The notes under the pieces are model-generated. The model was not told the DNA's origin. It did not search any database and worked only from the letters and a program-made list of their open reading frames with translations. Shown piece after piece: positions 28,509-40,753 of a stretch of 40,973 nucleotides of DNA (the first letter of the stretch is position 1; each line of letters opens with the position of its first letter). The stretch is from an uncultured bacterium (GTDB lineage: Bacteria; Cyanobacteriota; Vampirovibrionia; Gastranaerophilales; Gastranaerophilaceae). Both the position numbers and the translations under genes were made by a program. Location of the stretch: positions 1-40,973 of the forward strand of contig CACXCI010000009.1 of NCBI GenBank assembly GCA_902766105.1, read 5' to 3'.

Positions 28509-29810
28509 ATGAAAAAGATTTTTGCACTTATAATAGCTTTTATTTTCCTGACATCAAATGCCGGTTTTGCTTTTAGCGAACTGTATTACTTGCATAATAT
28601 CTCAGAACAAAAAGCAAATTCTATCGTAAAAACCAGTTTGCAAAATTTGAATTACAGACTGGAAAGTGAAAACCCTTATTATGCAATATACAATAAAAAT
28701 CCTGATGATAATGCGGTTATAATTATTCAAGCCAGCGGCTCTAATGTATATTATTACTATTATACAGAAAAAAAGCGCAACAAAGAACTGAATAATGCCT
28801 TATTAAGAACATTTAGAAGTTACAGAATAAACTATGACAATCAATCACAGAACACTAATGTTTTAAATGTGTATGATAACATTGCGCAAAAAACAATAAG
28901 TTCATCAGGATCTATCAATAAATACGATTTTGGAGATGATGACAACAATTATATAACGACGTCTACAAAGAGAAATGTCGTAACAATTCCTCAACAATAC
29001 AATTATTCAAACAGTCAACTTTCGCAAACTTATAACCCGCAAATAACATATAATAACCAAAATCAAAATAACACCTATAAAACAAACACATATACCAATA
29101 CAAATACCAATGCGTATTCCACACAAAATAATACGAAAAGAGAACCAAGAATAACATATCCTGCGAATACACAATATGTACCGTATGACAACAACAATAC
29201 CCAAACAGCCTACTTAACCCCGGGAACAACGCTAAAATCACAACAGGCAACCGTTCTTAAAGGTTCAGTTGTATCAATTGATTCGGGAACAAAAATAAAT
29301 ACATATCTTCAAAATCCGATAAACACAGCTTCCGCAAACGTAGGAGATAAAGTTGTTGTAGTATTAACAGACGATTTAAAATATAACGGAGTATTAGCTA
29401 TTCCACAAGGAAGCCTGGTTTACGGAACACTATCAAAAGCAAGACATGCAACATACGGTTCTCGTAACGGAAGAGTTGTAATAGAATTTAACCAACTCGT
29501 AACTCCTGATAATAAAGTATATGAAATTTCAGCAGAAAAAATTGATTTTACAGTAACAAATGACGGTAAAGTCGGAAGAACTGTCGGAAATGCCGTTGCC
29601 GGTGCCGCAGTCGGCGCATTAGCAGGCTTGCTGTTTGGAGCATTAGGAGGGGGCAACATTGGTACGGCTGCCGCAATCGGTGCAGGAGTCGGCGCAGGAA
29701 CATCTTTAATAGGTTCCGGTGCAGAAAGAGGTGTTGATGCCGAAATTCCATCCTTCACACAGCTTGAATTAACCCTGACAAAACCGGTAAGAGTTTCTGT
29801 CAGCTACTAA
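28509..29810 (+). CDS. Secreted VirB10-like/glycine-zipper protein
   Basis: A 433-aa exported protein of unknown function. Residues 1-21 form a signal peptide (MKKIFALIIAFIFLTSNAGFA). A globular N-terminal part follows (about 25-120), then an Asn/Gln/Thr-rich low-complexity linker (about 160-240). The C-terminal region (about 250-350) has the pattern of TrbI/VirB10-like domains: NPINTASANVGDKV, LAIPQGSLVYGTLSKAR and FNQLVTPDNKVYEI. It ends with a glycine zipper (about 355-402, VGNAVAGAAVGALAGLLFGA) and a short beta tail. The zipper may insert into or oligomerise at a membrane. First gene of a five-gene operon: the next starts 10 bp later. VirB10 resemblance is by motif only; no other type IV secretion gene is present. 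Confidence 0.6.
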   Translation: MKKIFALIIAFIFLTSNAGFAFSELYYLHNISEQKANSIVKTSLQNLNYRLESENPYYAIYNKNPDDNAVIIIQASGSNVYYYYYTEKKRNKELNNALLRTFRSYRINYDNQSQNTNVLNVYDNIAQKTISSSGSINKYDFGDDDNNYITTSTKRNVVTIPQQYNYSNSQLSQTYNPQITYNNQNQNNTYKTNTYTNTNTNAYSTQNNTKREPRITYPANTQYVPYDNNNTQTAYLTPGTTLKSQQATVLKGSVVSIDSGTKINTYLQNPINTASANVGDKVVVVLTDDLKYNGVLAIPQGSLVYGTLSKARHATYGSRNGRVVIEFNQLVTPDNKVYEISAEKIDFTVTNDGKVGRTVGNAVAGAAVGALAGLLFGALGGGNIGTAAAIGAGVGAGTSLIGSGAERGVDAEIPSFTQLELTLTKPVRVSVSY

Positions 29811-29820
29811 AAGAGGTAAA

Positions 29821-30489
29821 ATGAATAAACAACTTATTGCAATAGGAATATTTATACTGGGAATATCAATTTTTGCCAAATTGATGTTTGTATTGAGCAA
29901 AAATATTCAAGTTGATGAATTTCATAAGGCTGCGGTAATCTTTGTACTTGATGCAACAGCATCAAATAAAAACACATTACCTCAGCAAATTCAATATCTA
30001 AAAAATCTTAGCGCAATATTAGACCCTGAAGATGAAATAAAAATAATTAAAGTTTCAGACTCAGCATATCTTATATATGAAGGTTCTCCCGGTGATACAA
30101 AAAATATTACAAAAGCGGTTTCCACTTTTGCAAAACCTGAAAGAGTAGAACACGGAACTGCTTATGGAGAAGGAATTAAAAAAGCTGTTGAACATTGTCT
30201 TACAATGAAAAAAGAAGGCTATAGACCGGCAATTGTAGTTTCCGGCGATTTGGCAAGCGATGGAGATATTACAAAGCAAATTAACTGGGAAACCCTTCCC
30301 AAAAATATTCAAAAAACAAAACAGTACATCCCGGAATTGGCAATGATGTTTGTATATGCGCCACCTGAAAAACTGGATATGGCAAAAACCAAGCTTAATC
30401 CAATACTAGGAGAAAAGAAACTAATTATAGCTAACAGCGAAAACGTTGGTAAAGCCAGCAGCAAATTTTTAAAAGCAATAGGACGATAA
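29821..30489 (+). CDS. Membrane-anchored VWA-like protein
   Basis: A 222-aa protein with an N-terminal TM helix (about 5-26, probably an uncleaved anchor) and a von Willebrand factor A-like domain. The strand AAVIFVLDATAS gives a MIDAS-like DxTxS at residues 44-48, followed by HGTAYGEGIKKAVE (the conserved Thr position) and IVVSGDLASDGD (the Asp position). Metal-dependent protein binding on the periplasmic side is therefore plausible. AGAGGT lies before the ATG. It is the second gene of the operon, with 10 and 13 bp to its neighbours. Confidence 0.65.
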   Translation: MNKQLIAIGIFILGISIFAKLMFVLSKNIQVDEFHKAAVIFVLDATASNKNTLPQQIQYLKNLSAILDPEDEIKIIKVSDSAYLIYEGSPGDTKNITKAVSTFAKPERVEHGTAYGEGIKKAVEHCLTMKKEGYRPAIVVSGDLASDGDITKQINWETLPKNIQKTKQYIPELAMMFVYAPPEKLDMAKTKLNPILGEKKLIIANSENVGKASSKFLKAIGR

Positions 30490-30502
30490 AGAGGAAAATA
30501 TT

Positions 30503-32101
30503 ATGACATTTTCAATAAGCTCTAAAAATGGTGAAAAAATCTTTACCAATAAACAGGTAATATACATAAGTTCAAAACAGGGTTATGACTATTATTTGAA
30601 CACCGGTTTTGATTTTACGCTTACCGTTCAATATGATGCAAAATCAAACAAATGCGTAATTTTAAATCAATTTAATACTAAGAAATTCCTCTTTAAAGGT
30701 CAACCGATTCCGCCCAGACTGGAAGTCGAAAAAATTTGCAAAATTATGGCAGAAGGCTCAGATGAATTTATTACAATCAAAATTATTGAGAATAACGAAC
30801 GAAAAGAATTTTCTCAAAATAAAACTCCAAATGAAGGAATTCGCACAACATACACACACGCAGCAAATACATCAGCAAAAACCGATATTGAAAAAAAGAA
30901 AAGCGAAATAGAAACGGCAAGAATTGCCATCATTAAACAAGTAGGCGGAAAAATAAACGACATTAAACGTAAGATTTCAATGAATTCAAAAGCCGGAATT
31001 TTTCTTCATATCGCATTATTTCTAGCATCATTTGTCTGCTCATTTGGAATTGCCAACTATATGACCGGACTTCCGCTGCAAGAAGCCGGCGGAGTAATTC
31101 AAATGCCTTCAAATCTTAAATTGATATTTATATATGCTGTAATACTTTATGGAATAAATACCATCTTAAAACAGGGGACATTTCTATATATGCAAAACAG
31201 ACTCGGGTATAACAATCAGGCATCTTATGCTGCCGAAAGAATTATGATTGTTTTAGCCTCGATATTTTATACAGCAATATATTTCGTAAATCTTTTGTAT
31301 TATTTAACGCCCAAAACATTTTCTCTGTTTGCTGTTTTAATTTCTTTATTCTTTGTGGGTACTTGTGCTGCGCTTGCTGTGGCATGCGGATATTTTAAAA
31401 GTAACAGCATAGAACTCAGAAAAGAATTATCACAATATGAGTACAGAGAAGATTTTGAATACGTTATAAAAGAATATCAAAATTGGATTGAAAAATTTGT
31501 AAACACTCTAAATATGTCAAAAATACAAGCTATAAAAGATAAAATGGTCAATCTCCAGATGAAATCCGCAGGTGAAACCATTATAGGAATGTTTACTGCC
31601 CCATTTTTGGCTTACGGAGTTTCAAACACTCTTGCCGGTTGTTTCCCTGAAGCGGCTGGCTGGGTAAGGATTTCAGGTTTAAGATTGAGTCCTATATTTT
31701 TAGTTCTGGCAACATTTTTGATTATATTTGCATTCTTCAATTTCGTAAACGGATTTTTCTGCGGAAAGAAAATTCAAGCATCAAATGTTATTAAACAAGA
31801 CGGCTACAGTAATTATATCCAGCACGGCGCAGAAATATACGGACTTGAAGGAGTTAAAAAACTTGATATAGAGATGAGAAGATCATTTATAATAGGTATT
31901 TCAATTATATTCATAGAATTTTCAATGAATGTTTCCTTTTTTATGCAGTCAATAGGCGGTGATTTGAGCGGATTGATGCTGTCTGCGGTTACAGCACTTG
32001 TTCCGACAGCACTTTTGATTGCGGAAACATTTATGCTTAGTTCTACTAAATTTGAAATATTTGCGTGCGACTCACTAATTTCTAAAAACGACAGAGAATA
32101 A
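30503..32101 (+). CDS. Polytopic membrane protein, about 8 TM helices
   Basis: A 532-aa protein not recognised as a known family. Residues 1-100 form a beta-rich soluble domain with a weak FHA-like look (FLFKGQPIPPRLEVEKICKI), then a charged helix (130-160). Hydrophobic helices lie at about 164-187, 204-222, 245-268, 273-297, 363-385, 402-425, 471-490 and 498-522. Between TM4 and TM5 is a roughly 65-residue amphipathic, coiled-coil-like loop. The layout does not look like ExbB/TolQ (3 TM). It could be the energy or scaffold partner of the two TonB-like proteins that follow, but this is inference from operon position. Its TAA overlaps the next ATG by one base (TAATG). Confidence 0.6.
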   Translation: MTFSISSKNGEKIFTNKQVIYISSKQGYDYYLNTGFDFTLTVQYDAKSNKCVILNQFNTKKFLFKGQPIPPRLEVEKICKIMAEGSDEFITIKIIENNERKEFSQNKTPNEGIRTTYTHAANTSAKTDIEKKKSEIETARIAIIKQVGGKINDIKRKISMNSKAGIFLHIALFLASFVCSFGIANYMTGLPLQEAGGVIQMPSNLKLIFIYAVILYGINTILKQGTFLYMQNRLGYNNQASYAAERIMIVLASIFYTAIYFVNLLYYLTPKTFSLFAVLISLFFVGTCAALAVACGYFKSNSIELRKELSQYEYREDFEYVIKEYQNWIEKFVNTLNMSKIQAIKDKMVNLQMKSAGETIIGMFTAPFLAYGVSNTLAGCFPEAAGWVRISGLRLSPIFLVLATFLIIFAFFNFVNGFFCGKKIQASNVIKQDGYSNYIQHGAEIYGLEGVKKLDIEMRRSFIIGISIIFIEFSMNVSFFMQSIGGDLSGLMLSAVTALVPTALLIAETFMLSSTKFEIFACDSLISKNDRE

Positions 32102-33222
32102 TGAATTACAAGGTACTTTTAACAACATTACTAATATTAACGGCAATTGCGACTATATTTATATGTATAGCCAGACCTCAAATGCACAAATCAGTTTTAG
32201 TATATAGTTCTGAATTTAAAATTGTACCGCAAAATGAAATTGAAATAGAGGTTCAAAACATACCAACAATAACTGTTGTCGATAACACTCCAATAAACAC
32301 AGGTCAAGGGATAAACATTACATCAGATCAGAACATTTCAACGCAACAAGTTACTACCCAAGGAATAAACATAAACCAAAATCAAAATTATATCCCTCAA
32401 AAAATTACGACACAAGGAGTAAATATAAATGCAAATCAAAACTTTGCCCCGCAAAAAGTTACTACACAAATGGTAAACGTTAATCCCAATCAGGGTATAA
32501 AAATAGCCTCAAATCAAAGTTATCCTCCCCCAAAAATTACAACACAAGGTATAAAAACAACAACTCCAGCAACAAAACCTTCAAACCAAGGGGTAAAAGT
32601 AAATTATCCTCAATTAGAAAACACCAATATCAAAACGACATCACCTCAAATAGATATTCAGAAAATACTTGATAATAACAAAAAAATTCAGGCAGCAAAT
32701 CAGCATGTTACACCAGATCCGATTACAGCAAAAAATGTAACAACAACTCCTGCCGGAATAAACACAAACAAAATAGCCCAAACACCTGTAACTCCAAAAG
32801 TTGTAACAACACCTGCAAAAACAATTCCGACAACAATTCCGTCGCAAAATACTGTATTGACACCTCAGCAGGAGCAAATTGCATGGCAAGTTTGGCGTTC
32901 AAATCTTCAAAATAAAATTATGCAGGATGTAAGATTACCAAATGTTCCACAAGGTACAATTTTTAAATTTTCATTTGACGTTGACAGGTACGGAAAAATA
33001 ACAAACGTTCACACAACATCAACAAATTCTGCATACACACCGTATGCAATACAATATATAGCACCTGTTATAAAAAGTTATCAGGGACGCTCCATTCTGA
33101 ATTTTCCAAGCGGTTCCAAAAGAACTACCACAGAATTTATCGGCTCATTCAGAATAAATAACAGCAGCAATAAATACAGCACAACTCAAGACTATAGAGA
33201 TACGGAAAGGATTACTAAGTAA
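32101..33222 (+). CDS. TonB-like protein with Asn/Gln-rich repeat linker
   Basis: A 373-aa protein with the TonB plan. A single N-terminal TM helix (about 5-25, VLLTTLLILTAIATIFI) is followed by a long, disordered periplasmic linker. Residues 64-155 of the linker contain about four imperfect 21-residue repeats built on TTQGINI-NQNQNY-PQKI. The C-terminal domain (about 262-352) resembles TonB/TolA: WQVWRSNLQNKIM, then FDVDRYGKITNV and a later strand FIGSFRIN. No Pro-Glu/Pro-Lys spacer typical of E. coli TonB is present. It is translationally coupled to the 8-TM gene (TAATG), and the next gene starts 2 bp after its stop. Partner receptors are not in the window. Confidence 0.65.
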   Translation: MNYKVLLTTLLILTAIATIFICIARPQMHKSVLVYSSEFKIVPQNEIEIEVQNIPTITVVDNTPINTGQGINITSDQNISTQQVTTQGININQNQNYIPQKITTQGVNINANQNFAPQKVTTQMVNVNPNQGIKIASNQSYPPPKITTQGIKTTTPATKPSNQGVKVNYPQLENTNIKTTSPQIDIQKILDNNKKIQAANQHVTPDPITAKNVTTTPAGINTNKIAQTPVTPKVVTTPAKTIPTTIPSQNTVLTPQQEQIAWQVWRSNLQNKIMQDVRLPNVPQGTIFKFSFDVDRYGKITNVHTTSTNSAYTPYAIQYIAPVIKSYQGRSILNFPSGSKRTTTEFIGSFRINNSSNKYSTTQDYRDTERITK

Positions 33223-33224
33223 AC

Positions 33225-34508
33225 ATGTTTAAGTGTGTAGAATGCGGAACAGAATACAAAATCAAACCGGACTATTGCGATTGCGGGAATGATATGTTTG
33301 AACTGGTAGAGGATATGCCGGAAATCGAAATGAGGGAAGATTTGTCGGAAACCAAACAATATTTCCCGCAACAAGAGGAATTTCACAGCTCTCTAAATTC
33401 AAATCCGTTATCATTTGATACAAAATCCATAACCATTTTTGCTTTGTGCATATTGTTTGCATTTCTAACCCTGTTTTTTATAGGAAATCCTAAACAAACT
33501 CCTCAGGCTCAACAAAAAAAATCAACTCAAACAACCGAGCAAAATGTACAAAATATTCCGTCCGTAGATTCATTTTGGGACAATTCCACAGAAGGTATAA
33601 ATTCTGATAATGTTATCGCTAAAAATACAACCGAAATTGAGGTTAACAAACAAAATAACCAACAAACACAACATCAACAGGTTAAGCCTACAGAAACCGT
33701 TGATCCGTTTACGGCAAGATTTGAAAGATGGCTTAATCAACCAAGCAGATACGAGCAAAATACTGTATCTCAACCTATTAAATCAAATACTCAAACTCAA
33801 AAAACCACAGCACAAAAAACGGTTCAACAAAATAAAACAATAACGGTAAAAACACCATCAAGTACAATCAATACACAAACCCAACAGGCTAAAAAACAAA
33901 CTCAAGCAAACAACTCTCAAAAAGATTTAATTGCAAAAATACAAAAACAATACAGTACGCAAAAAACAAATGCACCACAAACCACAAATAACACTCAGCC
34001 TAAACAAACAACTCAGAATATAACAACAATTCAAAAAACAACCAATTCAACCCAGCAAAAAACAGCCGAAAACTCAAGACCAAAAGATCCAATGACCGAT
34101 TTCTTTGACAAAACTCAAACAACAGCAAAAAATTCCCCTACCGAAAATAAAACAATCACAACACACACAACCCCAAAAGTTGTACAGAAAGGGAAAAGCC
34201 AAGCTCAACTGCAACAAGAATTAACAACATACAAAGCCTCATTAAGAAATAATATCGGCAGAAAAATAAATTTTGCACATATTGTGGGCGACGGCAATTG
34301 CGCAATTACCTTCAACATAAATTCTTCCGGAAAACTTACAAATCGAAAATTTTCACAACAATCAACAAATATCACATTAAATGATGCCGTATATAGCGCA
34401 ATGATGTCAACTCCGAGTTACAACCCGCCGCCGGAAGGCTATAAAAACGAAACTCTTACATTTCACGTAAAAATATACAACGGTAATTACGAAATTTCTC
34501 TTAAATAA
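33225..34508 (+). CDS. Zinc-ribbon, TonB-like membrane protein
   Basis: A 427-aa protein with an unusual build. A small cytoplasmic zinc-ribbon (C4, C7, C18, C20: MFKCVECGTEYK and YCDCG) is followed by an acidic stretch and one TM helix (about 68-88, SITIFALCILFAFLTLFFIG). A very long Gln/Thr/Asn/Lys-rich disordered linker (about 90-330) leads to a C-terminal TonB/TolA-like domain (about 336-425, YKASLRNNIGRKINFAHIV with ITFNINSSGKLTN). It shares the C-terminal fold and topology with the preceding gene but has a different N-terminus. Last gene of the operon; the convergent VWA gene ends 3 bp away, leaving no room for a terminator. Confidence 0.62.
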   Translation: MFKCVECGTEYKIKPDYCDCGNDMFELVEDMPEIEMREDLSETKQYFPQQEEFHSSLNSNPLSFDTKSITIFALCILFAFLTLFFIGNPKQTPQAQQKKSTQTTEQNVQNIPSVDSFWDNSTEGINSDNVIAKNTTEIEVNKQNNQQTQHQQVKPTETVDPFTARFERWLNQPSRYEQNTVSQPIKSNTQTQKTTAQKTVQQNKTITVKTPSSTINTQTQQAKKQTQANNSQKDLIAKIQKQYSTQKTNAPQTTNNTQPKQTTQNITTIQKTTNSTQQKTAENSRPKDPMTDFFDKTQTTAKNSPTENKTITTHTTPKVVQKGKSQAQLQQELTTYKASLRNNIGRKINFAHIVGDGNCAITFNINSSGKLTNRKFSQQSTNITLNDAVYSAMMSTPSYNPPPEGYKNETLTFHVKIYNGNYEISLK

Positions 34509-34511
34509 GAT

Positions 34512-35477
34512 CTAGTAAATATCTTCAGCATCTTTAACAAATTCATAGTATTGCTGTTGACCGTTATTAATTGTATTCGGAGCAGATGTCGGCTGCGATT
34601 GAATAGAATTTGTTATTGTTGTTGAAAAATCAGAAAGATTATTTATATTATAAAAATGTCCGCCTGTTGTTGTTGCAAGGCATGACAACGCTCTTGAATT
34701 TGATGAAACAAGAACAACATCAATATGAACATCACTACGCTTGCTCATCAATCTGCGTGCAAACTCGCAAGGATCTCCTCCGCAATTTTCACCACCATCA
34801 GTTATTAAAACAATTTTTTTTGGTGTTATATTATCAAAACTAACAAAATCTTGATATACAGCTCTGTCTAAAGCATATACCAAAGGAGTTGCACCACCCA
34901 AATCCACTGAATTCATACCGTTTAACAAATTTTGTCCGTTAGCAGCATATATACCTGCAACCTGCTGGGTTGCAGAGCATGCTCCTGTTGTTCTTCCGGT
35001 AGGATTTGCCTTTGTTACCACCTTAAACTTATTCTTACCGGTGCTTACAATTTGTTTAACTTCTTGAACCATCGGAATATTTGGGTTATTCCCATAGTTG
35101 TTATGTCCAAATACTCTAAAACCTAATTTTGTTGATGGAGGAATTTGAGCAACAATTGATGTCATGCTCCGTTTTGCTACCCCAATCCAATTTGACATAC
35201 TACCGGAAAAATCCATAACAATCTCAACTATTCCGACCTGATTTGCATTTACCTGATTATTAGCGACATAAGAAGGTGCCATATAATTGTTGTAATAATT
35301 ATAGTTGTAGTTGTAACCATAATTTGGGTTTTGATTATAAGAATTGTTCGGAGCAGAAATTACATTTCCGGAATATTTTACAACACCGGAGGAATTAACT
35401 CTATATTTTGTTGCTGCAAACACACAACAGCATGATAATATACCCAGTACCAATAAAACCAATGCAATCTTTTTCAT
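34512..35477 (-). CDS. Secreted VWA-domain protein
   Basis: A 321-aa exported protein. The N-terminal signal sequence MKKIALVLLVLGILSCCCVF ends near AAT; no standard lipobox fits. A short Asn/Tyr-rich linker (about 44-66, repeated YNYN) precedes a well-formed von Willebrand factor A domain with an intact MIDAS: DFSGS at 89-93, the Thr in GGATPLVYALD, and ITDGGENCGGDPCEFARRL. Three Cys pairs (for example CGGDPC) suggest periplasmic disulfides. It faces the TonB-like operon tail to tail with a 3-bp gap and starts 268 bp from the first FHA-like gene on the other strand. Confidence 0.75.
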   Translation of the reverse strand: MKKIALVLLVLGILSCCCVFAATKYRVNSSGVVKYSGNVISAPNNSYNQNPNYGYNYNYNYYNNYMAPSYVANNQVNANQVGIVEIVMDFSGSMSNWIGVAKRSMTSIVAQIPPSTKLGFRVFGHNNYGNNPNIPMVQEVKQIVSTGKNKFKVVTKANPTGRTTGACSATQQVAGIYAANGQNLLNGMNSVDLGGATPLVYALDRAVYQDFVSFDNITPKKIVLITDGGENCGGDPCEFARRLMSKRSDVHIDVVLVSSNSRALSCLATTTGGHFYNINNLSDFSTTITNSIQSQPTSAPNTINNGQQQYYEFVKDAEDIY

Positions 35478-35745: not shown

Positions 35746-38061
35746 ATGAACAAAAAATTAATTTTAGCAGCAATCGCTGTAGCTTTAACAGCAAGCTGTG
35801 CTCAAGCAACAAACATTACCGGTGTTACAGGCAACAATGGTGTTTATAACATCAAACCGGAACACTATAGCGGAAATGCAGGCTATAGACAATACACAAA
35901 CTTTACACTTGATAAAGGTGATGTAGCAAACTTAGAATTTGTAAGAAACGGAAAAGCTAATCCGGACACATTCGTAAACCTTGTTAACAACAAAGTTAAC
36001 ATCAACGGTTTATTAAATACTACAAGAAACGGAGCTTTCTACAATGGTCATGCCGTATTTATTACACCGGGCGGATTTGTTGTAGGTTCATCAGGCGTTT
36101 TGAATGTCGGAAGATTATCTGTTGCAACACCAACAGCTAAAAAATACAAAGAATTAACCGATGAATACGAAAAAACAACAGCTCAATACCAAAAAATCGG
36201 TCAACAAATTTCAAAATTAACTCAAAACAGCACCGGTGAAGCAGGCGCAGCAGATATTACTATCAACGGTAAAGTATTTGCCCGTAACGGTGTTGAAATG
36301 ACCGGTAAAAATGTTAATATTTCAGACGCAGTTTTCAATGGTGTACCTACCGATAAACTGAATGATTACAATAGAGTATTAACAAGCGAAGATCAGGCAA
36401 AAGCTATGTTTAATGCTTTGGTCAATACAGACGGTTTAGTACCGGAATGGCAAGGCGAAAGCGAAGATTTTATTACTAAATTCGAACCTAACGGTTCAAG
36501 AATTTTAATTAAATCTACAAATGGCATGAACGTTTCAGGTTCTGTTGCTAACGGTGCAGGAAATGTTTATTTAACAAACAATGGCGCTGACGGAATGAAA
36601 GTTAGCGGAAATGTTGATGCATACAACTTAGCTAGACTATACAGCACAAAAGGTGATTTAACAGTTAATGGTAATGCTGTTGTTCAAGGCAGATTTGATA
36701 GTGCTGTTATACAAAATAAAGGTAATAACTTAACATTAGGGAAAAATACAAACGTAAAATCTAATAATAATGTTGAAGTAATCAATCAAGGCTCCGGAAG
36801 ATTGACAGCATCCGGAGATATCAGCAACGGATATGATCCAAGCGCTGGTGGCAAAGGGCATATTGCACTAATCAACAAAGGTTCAGGTATGACTGTTGAA
36901 GGCAATATCTCTTCAAATAAATTGAATGATGCGGGTGAAGTTGCAATTACTAACCACAACGGCGATTTAATTGTAAACGGCAGAATTGACAATAACGGAA
37001 ATCTTGGCATAATTAACTATGGTTCAGGTGCAACAATTACTAAAAATGCCGATATTGAAAACATAGGTAAAATCAAAATCGCTAACACAGGTGCTAATGG
37101 CTTAACCGTTGTTGGTAAAGTAAATAACGATGGTGAAATTCGTATCTACAATGATAACGGAAGATTAAAATTTACTACAGATTCCGCTAACATGACAGCT
37201 GCTAGTATTGCAAATAAAAACGGTAAATTATATATTGCATCAAGAAAAGAAGGTACCGGTATTGAAATGTCATCAAAAGCAGCTATTGTGAACGAAAACG
37301 GTAATATCGTTATCAGAAATTCAGGACAAAAAACAGCTGCAGGTACAAGAGGTACAGACCTTCAAGGTACTATAAAAACTTCTAACGGTACTATCGCTAT
37401 TAACAATGATTTTGGTGATATGTATGTTTCAGGTGATATTTCTACAACAAAAGGTAATATGGGTATCATCAACAGAAAACACGGCGGTGAAATGCTATTA
37501 TCAAGCAATGGTAAAGTTAGCGTTACTGACGGTAACTTAAATATCAAAAACTATGGAACAGGCGATATGACAGTTAACAGCGAAATCAATCACAATGGAC
37601 GTGTTAACGTATTAGCTAATGCAGGTGCATTACAATTAGGCGCTAAAGTTCACAACAACAGCGGTAAGTTAAGTGATAACGGCGGCTTCTATGCAGCAGC
37701 AAGAGCTAAAGGTACAGGCGTTAATGTAACAAGTGAATTTGCTGTTGACGGCAACGGTGAAGTTCTTATCAAAAACATCTCCGGAGAAAACGGCTTACGC
37801 TACAACGGAAAAATCAATACAACAAATAACCAAGCAGCTTTGGTTAACAAAAAAGGTAATATGGATATTTACGGCAGCGTAACAACAACGAATGCACCAG
37901 TTATAATCTCTAACCAAGGAAAAGGTTTAACAGTTTATAATTCAGCCGTTCTTAACAGCGGTACAGAAGGGACATTGGTTAACACCGGTTCTGAAGAAGG
38001 ATTAATTGGTACGGGCGCTACATACAACAACATGAAAATATACGAACAATTGAAAAAATAA
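35746..38061 (+). CDS. FHA/TPS-domain exoprotein, paralogue 1
   Basis: A 771-aa secreted protein. The signal peptide MNKKLILAAIAVALTASCAQA is followed by a haemagglutination-activity (TPS) domain (about 25-150) with NPDTFVNLVNNKVNINGL, then HAVFITPGGFVVGSSGVLNV. From about 240 to 750 it consists of short glycine/asparagine-rich repeats of the kind GxVxxxGxxxIxNxGxGxxV, predicted to fold as a right-handed beta-helix fibre. There is no C-terminal beta-barrel, LPXTG or PEP-CTERM sorting signal; it ends with a short EQLKK tail. No TpsB transporter is in the window. It is closely related along its whole length to the next gene. A role as adhesin or surface filament is inferred. Confidence 0.8.
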   Translation: MNKKLILAAIAVALTASCAQATNITGVTGNNGVYNIKPEHYSGNAGYRQYTNFTLDKGDVANLEFVRNGKANPDTFVNLVNNKVNINGLLNTTRNGAFYNGHAVFITPGGFVVGSSGVLNVGRLSVATPTAKKYKELTDEYEKTTAQYQKIGQQISKLTQNSTGEAGAADITINGKVFARNGVEMTGKNVNISDAVFNGVPTDKLNDYNRVLTSEDQAKAMFNALVNTDGLVPEWQGESEDFITKFEPNGSRILIKSTNGMNVSGSVANGAGNVYLTNNGADGMKVSGNVDAYNLARLYSTKGDLTVNGNAVVQGRFDSAVIQNKGNNLTLGKNTNVKSNNNVEVINQGSGRLTASGDISNGYDPSAGGKGHIALINKGSGMTVEGNISSNKLNDAGEVAITNHNGDLIVNGRIDNNGNLGIINYGSGATITKNADIENIGKIKIANTGANGLTVVGKVNNDGEIRIYNDNGRLKFTTDSANMTAASIANKNGKLYIASRKEGTGIEMSSKAAIVNENGNIVIRNSGQKTAAGTRGTDLQGTIKTSNGTIAINNDFGDMYVSGDISTTKGNMGIINRKHGGEMLLSSNGKVSVTDGNLNIKNYGTGDMTVNSEINHNGRVNVLANAGALQLGAKVHNNSGKLSDNGGFYAAARAKGTGVNVTSEFAVDGNGEVLIKNISGENGLRYNGKINTTNNQAALVNKKGNMDIYGSVTTTNAPVIISNQGKGLTVYNSAVLNSGTEGTLVNTGSEEGLIGTGATYNNMKIYEQLKK

Positions 38062-38126: not shown

Positions 38127-38404
38127 GATAAATATGTTTATTAAGAAAAATTAACAATCTTAATTCCCTGAAAATTCAAAGTATATCAGGTATAACTAAG
38201 CTTTTTTCAACTAAATCATATTATTAAGAAATGTAATAATTTATAAAGACATGGAAAAAAAATACCGACCAAGGGTTTATATATAATATAGAGTATATAC
38301 TAAAGATATACAAATGCCCGATAGTACGAGTGTGCGCAAACAGAAAGACATTTACCAAGAATGATTATGAGAAAAAAGAAAAATACACGAATAAAGGAGA
38401 TTGT
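38127..38404 (+). promoter_or_regulatory. Leader region of the second exoprotein gene
   Basis: 278 bp without a convincing gene. The first part is AT-rich, with a TATAAT at 38282-38287 flanked by GTATATAC-like dyads, a plausible promoter but without a clear -35. From 38314 a GC-richer patch (ATGCCCGATAGTACGAGTGTG, split here as motif only) may be a structured 5' leader. AAAGGAGATTGT supplies the ribosome-binding site. It differs from the leader of paralogue 1, so the two may be regulated separately. Confidence 0.35.
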
Positions 38405-40753
38405 ATGAACAGAAAGTTAATCTTAGCAGCTATTGCTGTAGCGTTGACTGCCGGATGTGCAGCACAAGCAACAAACATTTCAGGAGCAACAAATAACGGA
38501 AATATTTATTCGGTAAAACCTGAACATTTCAGCGGGAACGCAGGATATCGAAGATACGAAAACTTTTCTCTGGACAGAGGACACGTATTGAACTTGGAAT
38601 TTATCAGAGAACAAGCTGGAAAAGCAAATCCTGATACTTTTGTAAACTTGGTTGATTCAAAGGTAAACATTAACGGTTTGGTCAACACAACAAGAAACGG
38701 GGCATTTTATAATGGGCATGCGGTGTTTATTGCGCCAAACGGATTTGTTGTAGGCTCATCAGGCGTTTTGAATGTAGGAAGATTGTCAGTATCAACACCT
38801 ACAAGTAACACATATAATAAATTATTAAGCCACGATGGTAAAAACTTTGGTGATGCTGATTTCAATTATGCAGAAGCAATCGGACATAATCTGTCAAAAT
38901 TAACACAAAATTCTGACGCAAATTTACCTGCAGGCGCATCAGAGGTAGCAATCCACGGCTTAGTATTAACGAATAAAGGTGCAGAAATGAGCGGTAATAC
39001 AGTTAACGTTTCAGGGCATCTGGTAAACGGGGTTAAAAACCAAACAGCATTGACAACAGAAGAGGCTGCAAATAACTTGTTCACCTCACTTGTTAATACA
39101 AACGGCACATTAAAAGATGCTTCAAAATTTGAAATTAACGGCTCAAGAATATTACTCAAATCTGCGGAAGATATGTCAGTATCAGGTTCAGTTACAAATG
39201 GAGCTGTAGCAGCAAACAATAACATATCAACAAAAGGAACCTTCTTAACAAACAACGGAACCGGCGGAATGGTTGTAAGCGGTAAAGTTTATGATAATTC
39301 ACAAGTAAGACTTTATAACAAGGCCGGTAAACTTGAAATTAATAACGGCGCAGAAATTAATGCTAAACATGCAATTGCTCACAATTTGAGCGGTACAAAC
39401 TTAACACTTAACAGCGGTGCAAAAATTACAGCAACAGACAAAGCACAGGTTGTAAACAACGGCACAGGTAACTTGACATTAGCTGAAGGTTCAACTGTTC
39501 AAGCACCTAAAGTCGAAATTATAAATGATGGTAATGGCAAATTATCAGCATCTGGAACTATCAATGCAGATGGCGAACTTGCATTCAGAAACAACGGCGT
39601 TTCAATGCTGATTGAAGGTACTGCAACAAATAATTCAGGTGAAACTGCAATTCGCAATAAAAACGGTAATGCAACAATCAACGGCAATATTGAAAATCAA
39701 GGCAATATGGGCATAATAAACGAAGGCGGCGACTTGGAATTAAGCTCAACTTCTAATATAACAAATGAAGGCAAATTAAAAATTGCAAGCACAAAAGATG
39801 CAACAGGCGATATGAACCTGAACGGAAAAGTAGATAATGCCGGCGAAATTCGTATCTATAATGACCATGGAAGACTTGCTTTTGGTGTAACATCTAATAT
39901 CGCAAACGAAAACGGTAAGTTATATATCGTATCAAGAAAAGAAGGCACCGGTATTGAACAAGCAGCAAGCTCATCAATTACAAACCAAAACGGCAATATT
40001 GTTATAAGAAACTCAGGCACAAAAACAGCGAAAACGGAAAAAGGCTTAGACCTAAAAGGTACAATCAAAACAACAGACGGTGTAATTGCCATAAACAATG
40101 ACTTTGGCGACATGTACGTATCAAGTGATGTAACAGCACAAAGAGGAAACGTTGGGATTATCAACCGCAGCGGCGGCAATAATATGTCAACCAATGGCAA
40201 AGTAACAGTTACAGACGGCAACTTGAATATCAAAAATTACGGAATGGGTAATATGTCCGTAAATTCAGAGATTACACATGACGGGCGAGTTAACGTATTA
40301 GCTAACGCAGGTGCATTACAATTGGGAGCTAAAGTACACAACAATAGCGGAGCTTTAGGTGAAAATGGCGGATTCTATGCAGCTGCAAGAGCAAACGGAA
40401 CCGGAGTTAAAGTAACAAGCGAATTTGTTGTTGACGGAAACGGCGAAGTCCTAATTAAAAATATTACAGGCAACAACGGTTTGGAATATGAAGGCACAAT
40501 CAATACGACAAACCACCAAGCTGCGCTGGTAAATAAAAAAGGCAATATGACAGTAGCAGGCAATATAAAAACAACAAAAGCACCTATAGTCATATCAAAC
40601 CAAGGTAAGAAACTAACAGTCAGCAATTCAGCAAACTTGAATAGCGGAACACAAGGGGTATTGGTAAATACCGGTTCTGAAAAAGCTGACTTTGGTAATC
40701 CAACCTTAAATAATATAAAAACACTTGAACAACTAAATTACGCAGGAAACTAA
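38405..40753 (+). CDS. FHA/TPS-domain exoprotein, paralogue 2
   Basis: A 782-aa paralogue of the preceding gene with the same order: signal peptide MNRKLILAAIAVALTAGCAAQA, TPS domain (NPDTFVNLVDSKVNINGL; GFVVGSSGVLNVGRLSV) and Asn/Gly-rich beta-helix repeats to the C-terminus. The ATG at 38405 is chosen because AAAGGAG stands at the right distance; the in-frame extension to 38330 is non-coding in character. The C-terminal third is most similar to paralogue 1 (for example RVNVLANAGALQLGAK in both), while the segment after the TPS domain is diverged and has different insertions. No anchor or TpsB partner is visible. Confidence 0.8.
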   Translation: MNRKLILAAIAVALTAGCAAQATNISGATNNGNIYSVKPEHFSGNAGYRRYENFSLDRGHVLNLEFIREQAGKANPDTFVNLVDSKVNINGLVNTTRNGAFYNGHAVFIAPNGFVVGSSGVLNVGRLSVSTPTSNTYNKLLSHDGKNFGDADFNYAEAIGHNLSKLTQNSDANLPAGASEVAIHGLVLTNKGAEMSGNTVNVSGHLVNGVKNQTALTTEEAANNLFTSLVNTNGTLKDASKFEINGSRILLKSAEDMSVSGSVTNGAVAANNNISTKGTFLTNNGTGGMVVSGKVYDNSQVRLYNKAGKLEINNGAEINAKHAIAHNLSGTNLTLNSGAKITATDKAQVVNNGTGNLTLAEGSTVQAPKVEIINDGNGKLSASGTINADGELAFRNNGVSMLIEGTATNNSGETAIRNKNGNATINGNIENQGNMGIINEGGDLELSSTSNITNEGKLKIASTKDATGDMNLNGKVDNAGEIRIYNDHGRLAFGVTSNIANENGKLYIVSRKEGTGIEQAASSSITNQNGNIVIRNSGTKTAKTEKGLDLKGTIKTTDGVIAINNDFGDMYVSSDVTAQRGNVGIINRSGGNNMSTNGKVTVTDGNLNIKNYGMGNMSVNSEITHDGRVNVLANAGALQLGAKVHNNSGALGENGGFYAAARANGTGVKVTSEFVVDGNGEVLIKNITGNNGLEYEGTINTTNHQAALVNKKGNMTVAGNIKTTKAPIVISNQGKKLTVSNSANLNSGTQGVLVNTGSEKADFGNPTLNNIKTLEQLNYAGN

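Follow-up and report, generated by a model that had tools for sequence, protein, structure and literature searches.

A conserved six-gene locus of Gastranaerophilales, tentatively read as a Ton-like trans-envelope machine

Several described bacterial systems use the same kinds of parts as the locus reported here. The threonine-phosphorylation pathway of type VI secretion (TagQRST, PpkA, Fha) works with FHA and VWA domains, and FHA domains bind phosphothreonine through a conserved arginine. In the Agl-Glt machinery of Myxococcus, GltJ is laid out as a zinc ribbon, a transmembrane (TM) segment and a TonB domain. GltG, which unites a cytoplasmic FHA domain with a TonB domain, interacts with AglR in a two-hybrid assay (excerpt of PMC3169522), and CglB and CglD carry VWA domains (excerpt of PMC4488436). 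VWA proteins have also been proposed to serve attachment in the related Vampirovibrio (excerpt of PMC4451040).

The window analyzed here is a stretch of 40,973 nucleotides from an uncultured bacterium of the Gastranaerophilales (assembly GCA_902766105.1, contig CACXCI010000009.1). It carries ORFs g1 to g5 on the forward strand and a convergent g6 on the reverse strand, with successive gaps of 10, 13, -1, 2 and 3 bp (Table 1). The ORF coordinates thereby bear out a preliminary description, made from the letters alone, of five co-directional genes followed by a VWA gene in the opposite direction. The locus was not described in the titles and abstract openings found for Gastranaerophilales or Melainabacteria together with TonB, von Willebrand, ExbB or gliding, most subscription journals lying outside the coverage of that search. 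When the window's own six proteins were compared with curated families, only g6 cleared a cut-off, with g2 and g5 just below. A PADLOC search returned one partial match of g3 to an ATPase model (E = 0.009) and nothing for the other five proteins, and a reading as a defence system was dropped on this result. A scan for promoters gave 29 against 33.0 in shuffles, and for terminators 7 against 5.2.

Table 1. Positions of the six genes and their features in the window
Feature	Position	Strand	Description
g1	28509-29810	+	433 aa; predicted exported (read from sequence); glycine-zipper family, VirB10/TrbI resemblance
g1 glycine-zipper stretch, residues 359-398	29583-29702	+	PF13441 and PF13436, both below cut-off
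g2	29821-30489	+	222 aa; N-terminal TM anchor (read from sequence) and VWA domain with MIDAS residues
g3	30503-32101	+	532 aa; predicted FHA fold and duplicated 4-TM unit
g3 residues 1-96, predicted FHA fold	30503-30790	+	
g3 membrane repeat 1, residues 122-313	30866-31441	+	half-against-half profile alignment
g3 membrane repeat 2, residues 314-532	31442-32098	+	half-against-half profile alignment; invariant E472, N476, S478, T502, E508, T509
g4	32101-33222	+	373 aa; TM anchor, low-complexity rod, C-terminal domain akin to that of g5
g5	33225-34508	+	427 aa; four-cysteine (likely zinc-ribbon) motif, TM, rod, TonB domain
g5 residues 4-20, invariant C4, C7, C18, C20	33234-33284	+	19/19 rows
g5 TonB-like C-terminal domain, residues 336-413	34230-34463	+	PF13103; family 18/19
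g6	34512-35477	-	321 aa; predicted exported VWA protein, complete MIDAS, convergent

Conservation was assessed in 26 stretches from relatives (20 stretches from 18 genomes and six public loci). All six genes are found in order, g1 to g5 and then the convergent g6, in 12 of them, in one of which g5 and g6 are some 0.8 kb apart. Four more hold g1 to g5 with g6 not in the stretch, and three hold all of g1 to g5 in a spread-out arrangement with another gene at the place of g6 (g5 being two ORFs in one of these). The remaining stretches have g1 to g4 only (two), g2 to g5 only (one), g2 and g3 only (one), or lack g2 (three), and g3 adjoins g4 in 25 of the 26. The flanks vary, the commonest flanking cluster, prepilin-like by eye, being present in 6 of 27 stretches. 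Because the six genes are conserved together in relatives, chance ORFs can be ruled out. These are genuine genes, and their locus is conserved in many members of one Gastranaerophilales family, bacteria related to cyanobacteria and associated with the gut. The preliminary description had made its reading depend on the genes staying together in related genomes, as they do.

Taken alone, g5 lies below the Pfam TonB cut-off; across its family, TonB_2 matched in 18 of 19 members at E 0.1. Its profile matched the TonB family of a second cluster in the same genome, on contig C19 (86%, E = 5.3e-6, 87 columns), and PDB TonB chains were matched at E = 0.013. By sequence comparison, g5 has one TM anchor and bears a TonB/TolA-type domain at its C-terminus. 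Its N-terminal four-cysteine motif, invariant across the family, is likely a zinc ribbon. No TonB match was obtained for any of the 21 g4 members or by direct profile comparison, and the attempt to assign g4 directly failed; g4 is linked to TonB only via g5, which it resembles (hhalign 87%, E = 3.8e-6). Two TonB/TolA-like C-terminal domains on single anchors had been claimed from the letters, and that of g5 holds directly whereas that of g4 holds only through this relation.

g3, which had been described simply as an 8-TM protein, shows some eight hydrophobic segments, including a weak one. It is more than that: an FHA fold is predicted at its N-terminus, and its membrane part consists of a 4-TM unit duplicated in tandem (score 30.4, compared with 8.1 for the reversed sequence and no more than 5.8 among 40 shuffles). 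Both features, as well as the four-cysteine motif of g5, had been overlooked. Where the arginine that binds phosphopeptides would be expected, equivalence being judged by eye, the FHA domain has S, T, N or K in 65 of 65 rows. The residues listed for repeat 2 in Table 1 are likewise invariant in 65/65 rows. The membrane part found no confident match in the PDB. No known family was matched by g3 in the libraries searched, no transporter family among them (a match of that kind had been named as evidence against the preliminary reading), and neither g3 nor g4 matched anything meaningful in the family search. Kinship of g3 with ExbB/TolQ was rejected after its halves scored 0.2 and 1.6% against 30 ExbB sequences. 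MotA and ExbB folds were absent among the PDB rows listed for g3, a listing that does not exclude such folds.

Matches to g3 were found in 194 of the 286 genomes of the order, and full matches in 183. The difference is made up of G010 (E = 6e-4, unconfirmed) and ten genomes of the genus labelled g6, in which only the FHA part was matched: eight with ORFs of 99 aa, together with G142 and G280, dropped by E-value and genus. In those eight genomes (L090-L097) the 99-aa ORF consists of the g3 FHA-like domain by itself, and a protein that looks TolC-like by eye adjoins it in L090, L094 and L095, the three with neighbours printed. A phylum-wide sample gave g3 in 129 of 386 genomes, all from the window's family bar one at E = 9.8e-4; G020, a 66% complete assembly from outside this family, has a strong match. 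Among 7995 candidate proteins scored, 1210 were homologues of g3 at E ≤ 0.001, and the best 120 of these had no Pfam domain and, where named, were called hypothetical. g3 thus represents a widespread family with no named homologue among the matches listed and with a membrane fold that found no confident match.

Both proteins named as MIDAS-type VWA proteins in the preliminary description could be confirmed as such. g6 exceeds the Pfam VWA cut-off (26.0 versus 23.8 bits), and its five MIDAS residues (DxSxS, T, D) are invariant in 16 of 16 rows. g2 alone is under its cut-off (23.5 versus 27 bits); VWA_2 matched in 24 of 26 members of its family at E 0.01, and each MIDAS residue is present in 24 or 25 of the 26 rows, the window's own g2 having T for the middle S. 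Profile searches of the PDB gave nothing for g2 and a single chain for g6, named only Conserved protein (E = 2e-7). Of the order's 286 genomes, 274 have a loose VWA match to the g6 profile. Strong g6 matches were defined by E ≤ 1e-80, a cut-off chosen after a gap between 6.0e-89 and 1.4e-71 had been seen. They occur in 75 genomes, all of which have a full g3 (75/75), and in none of the 103 genomes without a full g3, the Fisher values for this association ignoring descent. Of 32 genomes in genus g14, 12 have both genes, 18 neither, two g3 alone and none g6 alone; in 11 of the 12, g3 and g6 lie on different contigs. No other gene of the set was found within about 5 kb of g6 in six of these split genomes, and the one g3 locus among them that was examined further (L142) has g1 to g5 together. 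We conclude that g6 is coupled to the rest of the set, the co-occurrence counts being ones that ignore descent.

In the g1 family (A8), Gly-zipper_YMGG matched 10 of 20 members, TrbI five and ComB10 one (2.9e-8). The window's own g1 yielded weak glycine-zipper matches only and no TrbI match, and the best TrbI match of the family, 34.4 bits against a curated cut-off of 35, belongs to the paralogue on C19. The likeness to VirB10 put forward in the preliminary description is thus weak: it is seen in a quarter of the family rows but not in the window's own protein. Its further term, secretin-like, drew no support from the family searches. A PDB profile search with g1 gave nothing credible, and the TagQ model matched four of the 20 members (best E = 6.8e-5). 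Compared with VirB10, TrbI and ComB10 of type IV secretion, the locus shares these family matches but differs in that g1 has no evident inner-membrane anchor or proline-rich part and that no VirB7, VirB9 or ATPase was found among the six proteins.

The C19 paralogue, which scores 94 bits against the window's g1 (phmmer), lies beside a TonB-ExbB-ExbD-ExbD cluster (L067, 1335-5674). An hhalign comparison of A8 with the C19 g1-like set (100%) was set aside as circular, because A8 includes one C19 protein, and the phmmer score was used instead. The C19-type TonB was matched in 60 of 60 family genomes searched. In the 30 best-scoring TonB loci of these genomes (L106-L135), ExbB follows in all 30, and a g1 homologue precedes in 29, the remaining one meeting a contig edge. 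The Plug domain of TonB-dependent receptors, the one model with which receptors were sought, occurs in 11 of 97 family genomes, the window's genome not being one of them. Since a g1 paralogue adjoins TonB-ExbB-ExbD-ExbD this regularly although Plug domains are rare, our data suggest that g1-type proteins are TonB partners in this family. The frequency of TonB and the rarity of Plug raise the question of what a receptor-less TonB acts on, and g1-type proteins are a concrete candidate for its target here.

The locus resembles Ton and Tol systems in that g5, and by relation g4, combine a TonB-type domain with one TM anchor and a long rod of low complexity, and in that a genuine TonB-ExbB-ExbD-ExbD cluster of this genome is paired with a g1 homologue. 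The locus differs in that none of the six proteins matched ExbB/TolQ or ExbD/TolR, in that g3, g2 and g6 have no counterpart there, and in the rarity of Plug domains in the window's family. The only PF01618 match in the genome is at C19, which agrees with the earlier view that this is not a standard Ton or Tol system with its own ExbB/ExbD.

We tentatively propose, with a confidence just short of an even chance, that the locus encodes a Ton-like trans-envelope machine. By prediction of topology and localization, g3, with its FHA fold and duplicated 4-TM unit, would be an inner-membrane hub holding the rods g4 and g5 and the VWA protein g2, and would stand in for ExbB/ExbD as a platform. The rods would likely reach the glycine-zipper, VirB10-like g1, which is placed putatively at the outer membrane. 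The exported VWA protein g6 could be the binding part, acting through its metal site, and the cytoplasmic FHA and four-cysteine domains may link the machine to signals inside the cell. Power might come from the single ExbB-ExbD set of the genome acting in trans, or from g3 itself, and the assembled machine would transmit force or signals to the surface of the cell.

We favour this Ton-like reading mainly because a g1-type and a TonB-type protein pair repeatedly, once with ExbB-ExbD and once with g3-g2. Also counted for it are the conserved block with its variable flanks, the TonB domain of g5 and the relation of g4 to it, the predicted FHA fold and the duplication in g3, and the co-occurrence of g3 and g6. 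Against it, the VirB10 resemblance comes mainly from the C19 paralogue and is weak for the window's own g1. Further, no g1 lies in the stretches around the g3 copies L057, L062 and L064, or in four of five copies from genus g20 (L083-L087, 1.5 kb on each side), the fifth having a 12.9-bit match. In addition, g4 has no direct TonB match, g2 is missing from three of 26 stretches, and the FHA domain is without its binding arginine.

A bolder proposal, which we consider improbable, is that g3 is a new ion-conducting membrane motor driving the TonB-like rods in place of ExbB-ExbD and gated from the cytoplasmic side by a non-phospho FHA domain. The conducting element would be the duplicated 4-TM unit, which has the invariant E472, T502, E508 and T509 in repeat 2. 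In this proposal, VirB10-like g1 proteins would also replace TonB-dependent receptors as the clients of the family's Ton systems. If g3 does replace ExbB/ExbD, it would represent a new way of powering or organizing the outer membrane.

The same parts could be assembled differently, as a surface adhesion or gliding machine like Agl-Glt, with FHA and zinc ribbon inside, TonB-like rods across the periplasm and g6 as a surface foot. We think this unlikely. The layout of g5 can be likened to the zinc-ribbon/TM/TonB order of GltJ. The six genes also share FHA, TonB and VWA part types with GltG and with CglB and CglD (excerpts of PMC3169522 and PMC4488436), the MIDAS of g6 is perfect, and an attachment role has been proposed for the Vampirovibrio proteins (excerpt of PMC4451040). 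However, the domains are dealt out otherwise, the FHA fold lying on g3 and TonB on g4/g5 and not on one bitopic protein as in GltG, the polytopic FHA protein g3 is new, and genes for an AglR/AglQ/AglS motor are not in the locus, the one PF01618 gene of the genome being that at C19. The GltJ model (NF033761) matched three of the 19 members of the g5 family, at best with E = 8.7e-4 and far under its 450-bit cut-off, and in the window's protein only the low-complexity middle, which falls short of establishing homology. The excerpt of PMC3787301 reports no gliding of these bacteria, and a literature search for GltJ with zinc, MglA or focal adhesion found nothing. Because the domains are differently arranged and the motor is missing, membership in Agl-Glt fails and the analogy stands.

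Two cytoplasmic signalling-type domains joined through TM proteins to VWA domains, in a locus without a motor gene, would suit a force-free complex that senses envelope stress or ligands with its VWA and TonB-like domains and relays the information from periplasm to cytoplasm by way of its FHA and four-cysteine domains. The FHA and VWA domains and the TagQ matches in the g1 family are also points of likeness to the type VI threonine-phosphorylation pathway, but no kinase, phosphatase, ABC transporter or regulator was found among the six proteins. As the FHA domain has no binding arginine, and as sensing would not account for the size and conservation of the membrane part or for its invariant acidic and hydroxyl residues, we regard this reading as distinctly unlikely. 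Very unlikely, in our view, is the idea of the preliminary description that the machine loads or anchors surface proteins such as the exoproteins just downstream. These are two adjacent, similar filamentous-adhesin proteins (NF012204; window positions 35746-38061 and 38330-40753; 151.6 and 127.4 bits), g1 belongs to a VirB10-like family, and full g3 and NF012204 co-occur above the expectation for independent genomes (both in 143 of 286 genomes, g3 only in 40, adhesin only in 47, neither in 56), the Fisher value ignoring descent. Yet neither adhesin found a match in the 26 stretches from relatives, NF012204 went unmatched in 40 of the 183 genomes that carry a full g3, and 47 genomes have adhesins but no full g3; the idea was rejected on neighbourhood and co-occurrence alike. 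There are four NF012204 matches in the window's genome, and some relatives carry the domain in open frames of more than 5000 residues. The Ton-like reading thus keeps from the preliminary description an unrecognized set of predicted envelope-spanning proteins, whose role across the periplasm would be as proposed above, and leaves behind the loading of exoproteins and the secretin.

Variants of the locus were also seen. A second copy in the window's genome, on contig C10 (L064), is shorter and comprises g2, g3 (40% identical) and g4, and the short stretches examined around the five genus-g20 copies contain g2-g3-g5. Two genomes, G216 (L056, L057) and G025 (L061, L062), each have a g3 copy without g2 in its operon and a second g3 copy with g2 elsewhere, as if g2 could act in trans. 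A small extra ORF (71-106 aa) lies just upstream of g1 in 10 of the 26 stretches (L007, L008, L009, L043-L048, L050). It encodes a TM segment and an MHKPFS-type motif reminiscent of the beginning of g4; in the window, the gap ahead of g1 contains no such ORF. In three relatives (L058 5129-5917, L059 4591-5400, L060 11128-11889), a different convergent gene stands where g6 would be; its product is predicted to be exported and has a TonB-like domain at its C-terminus.
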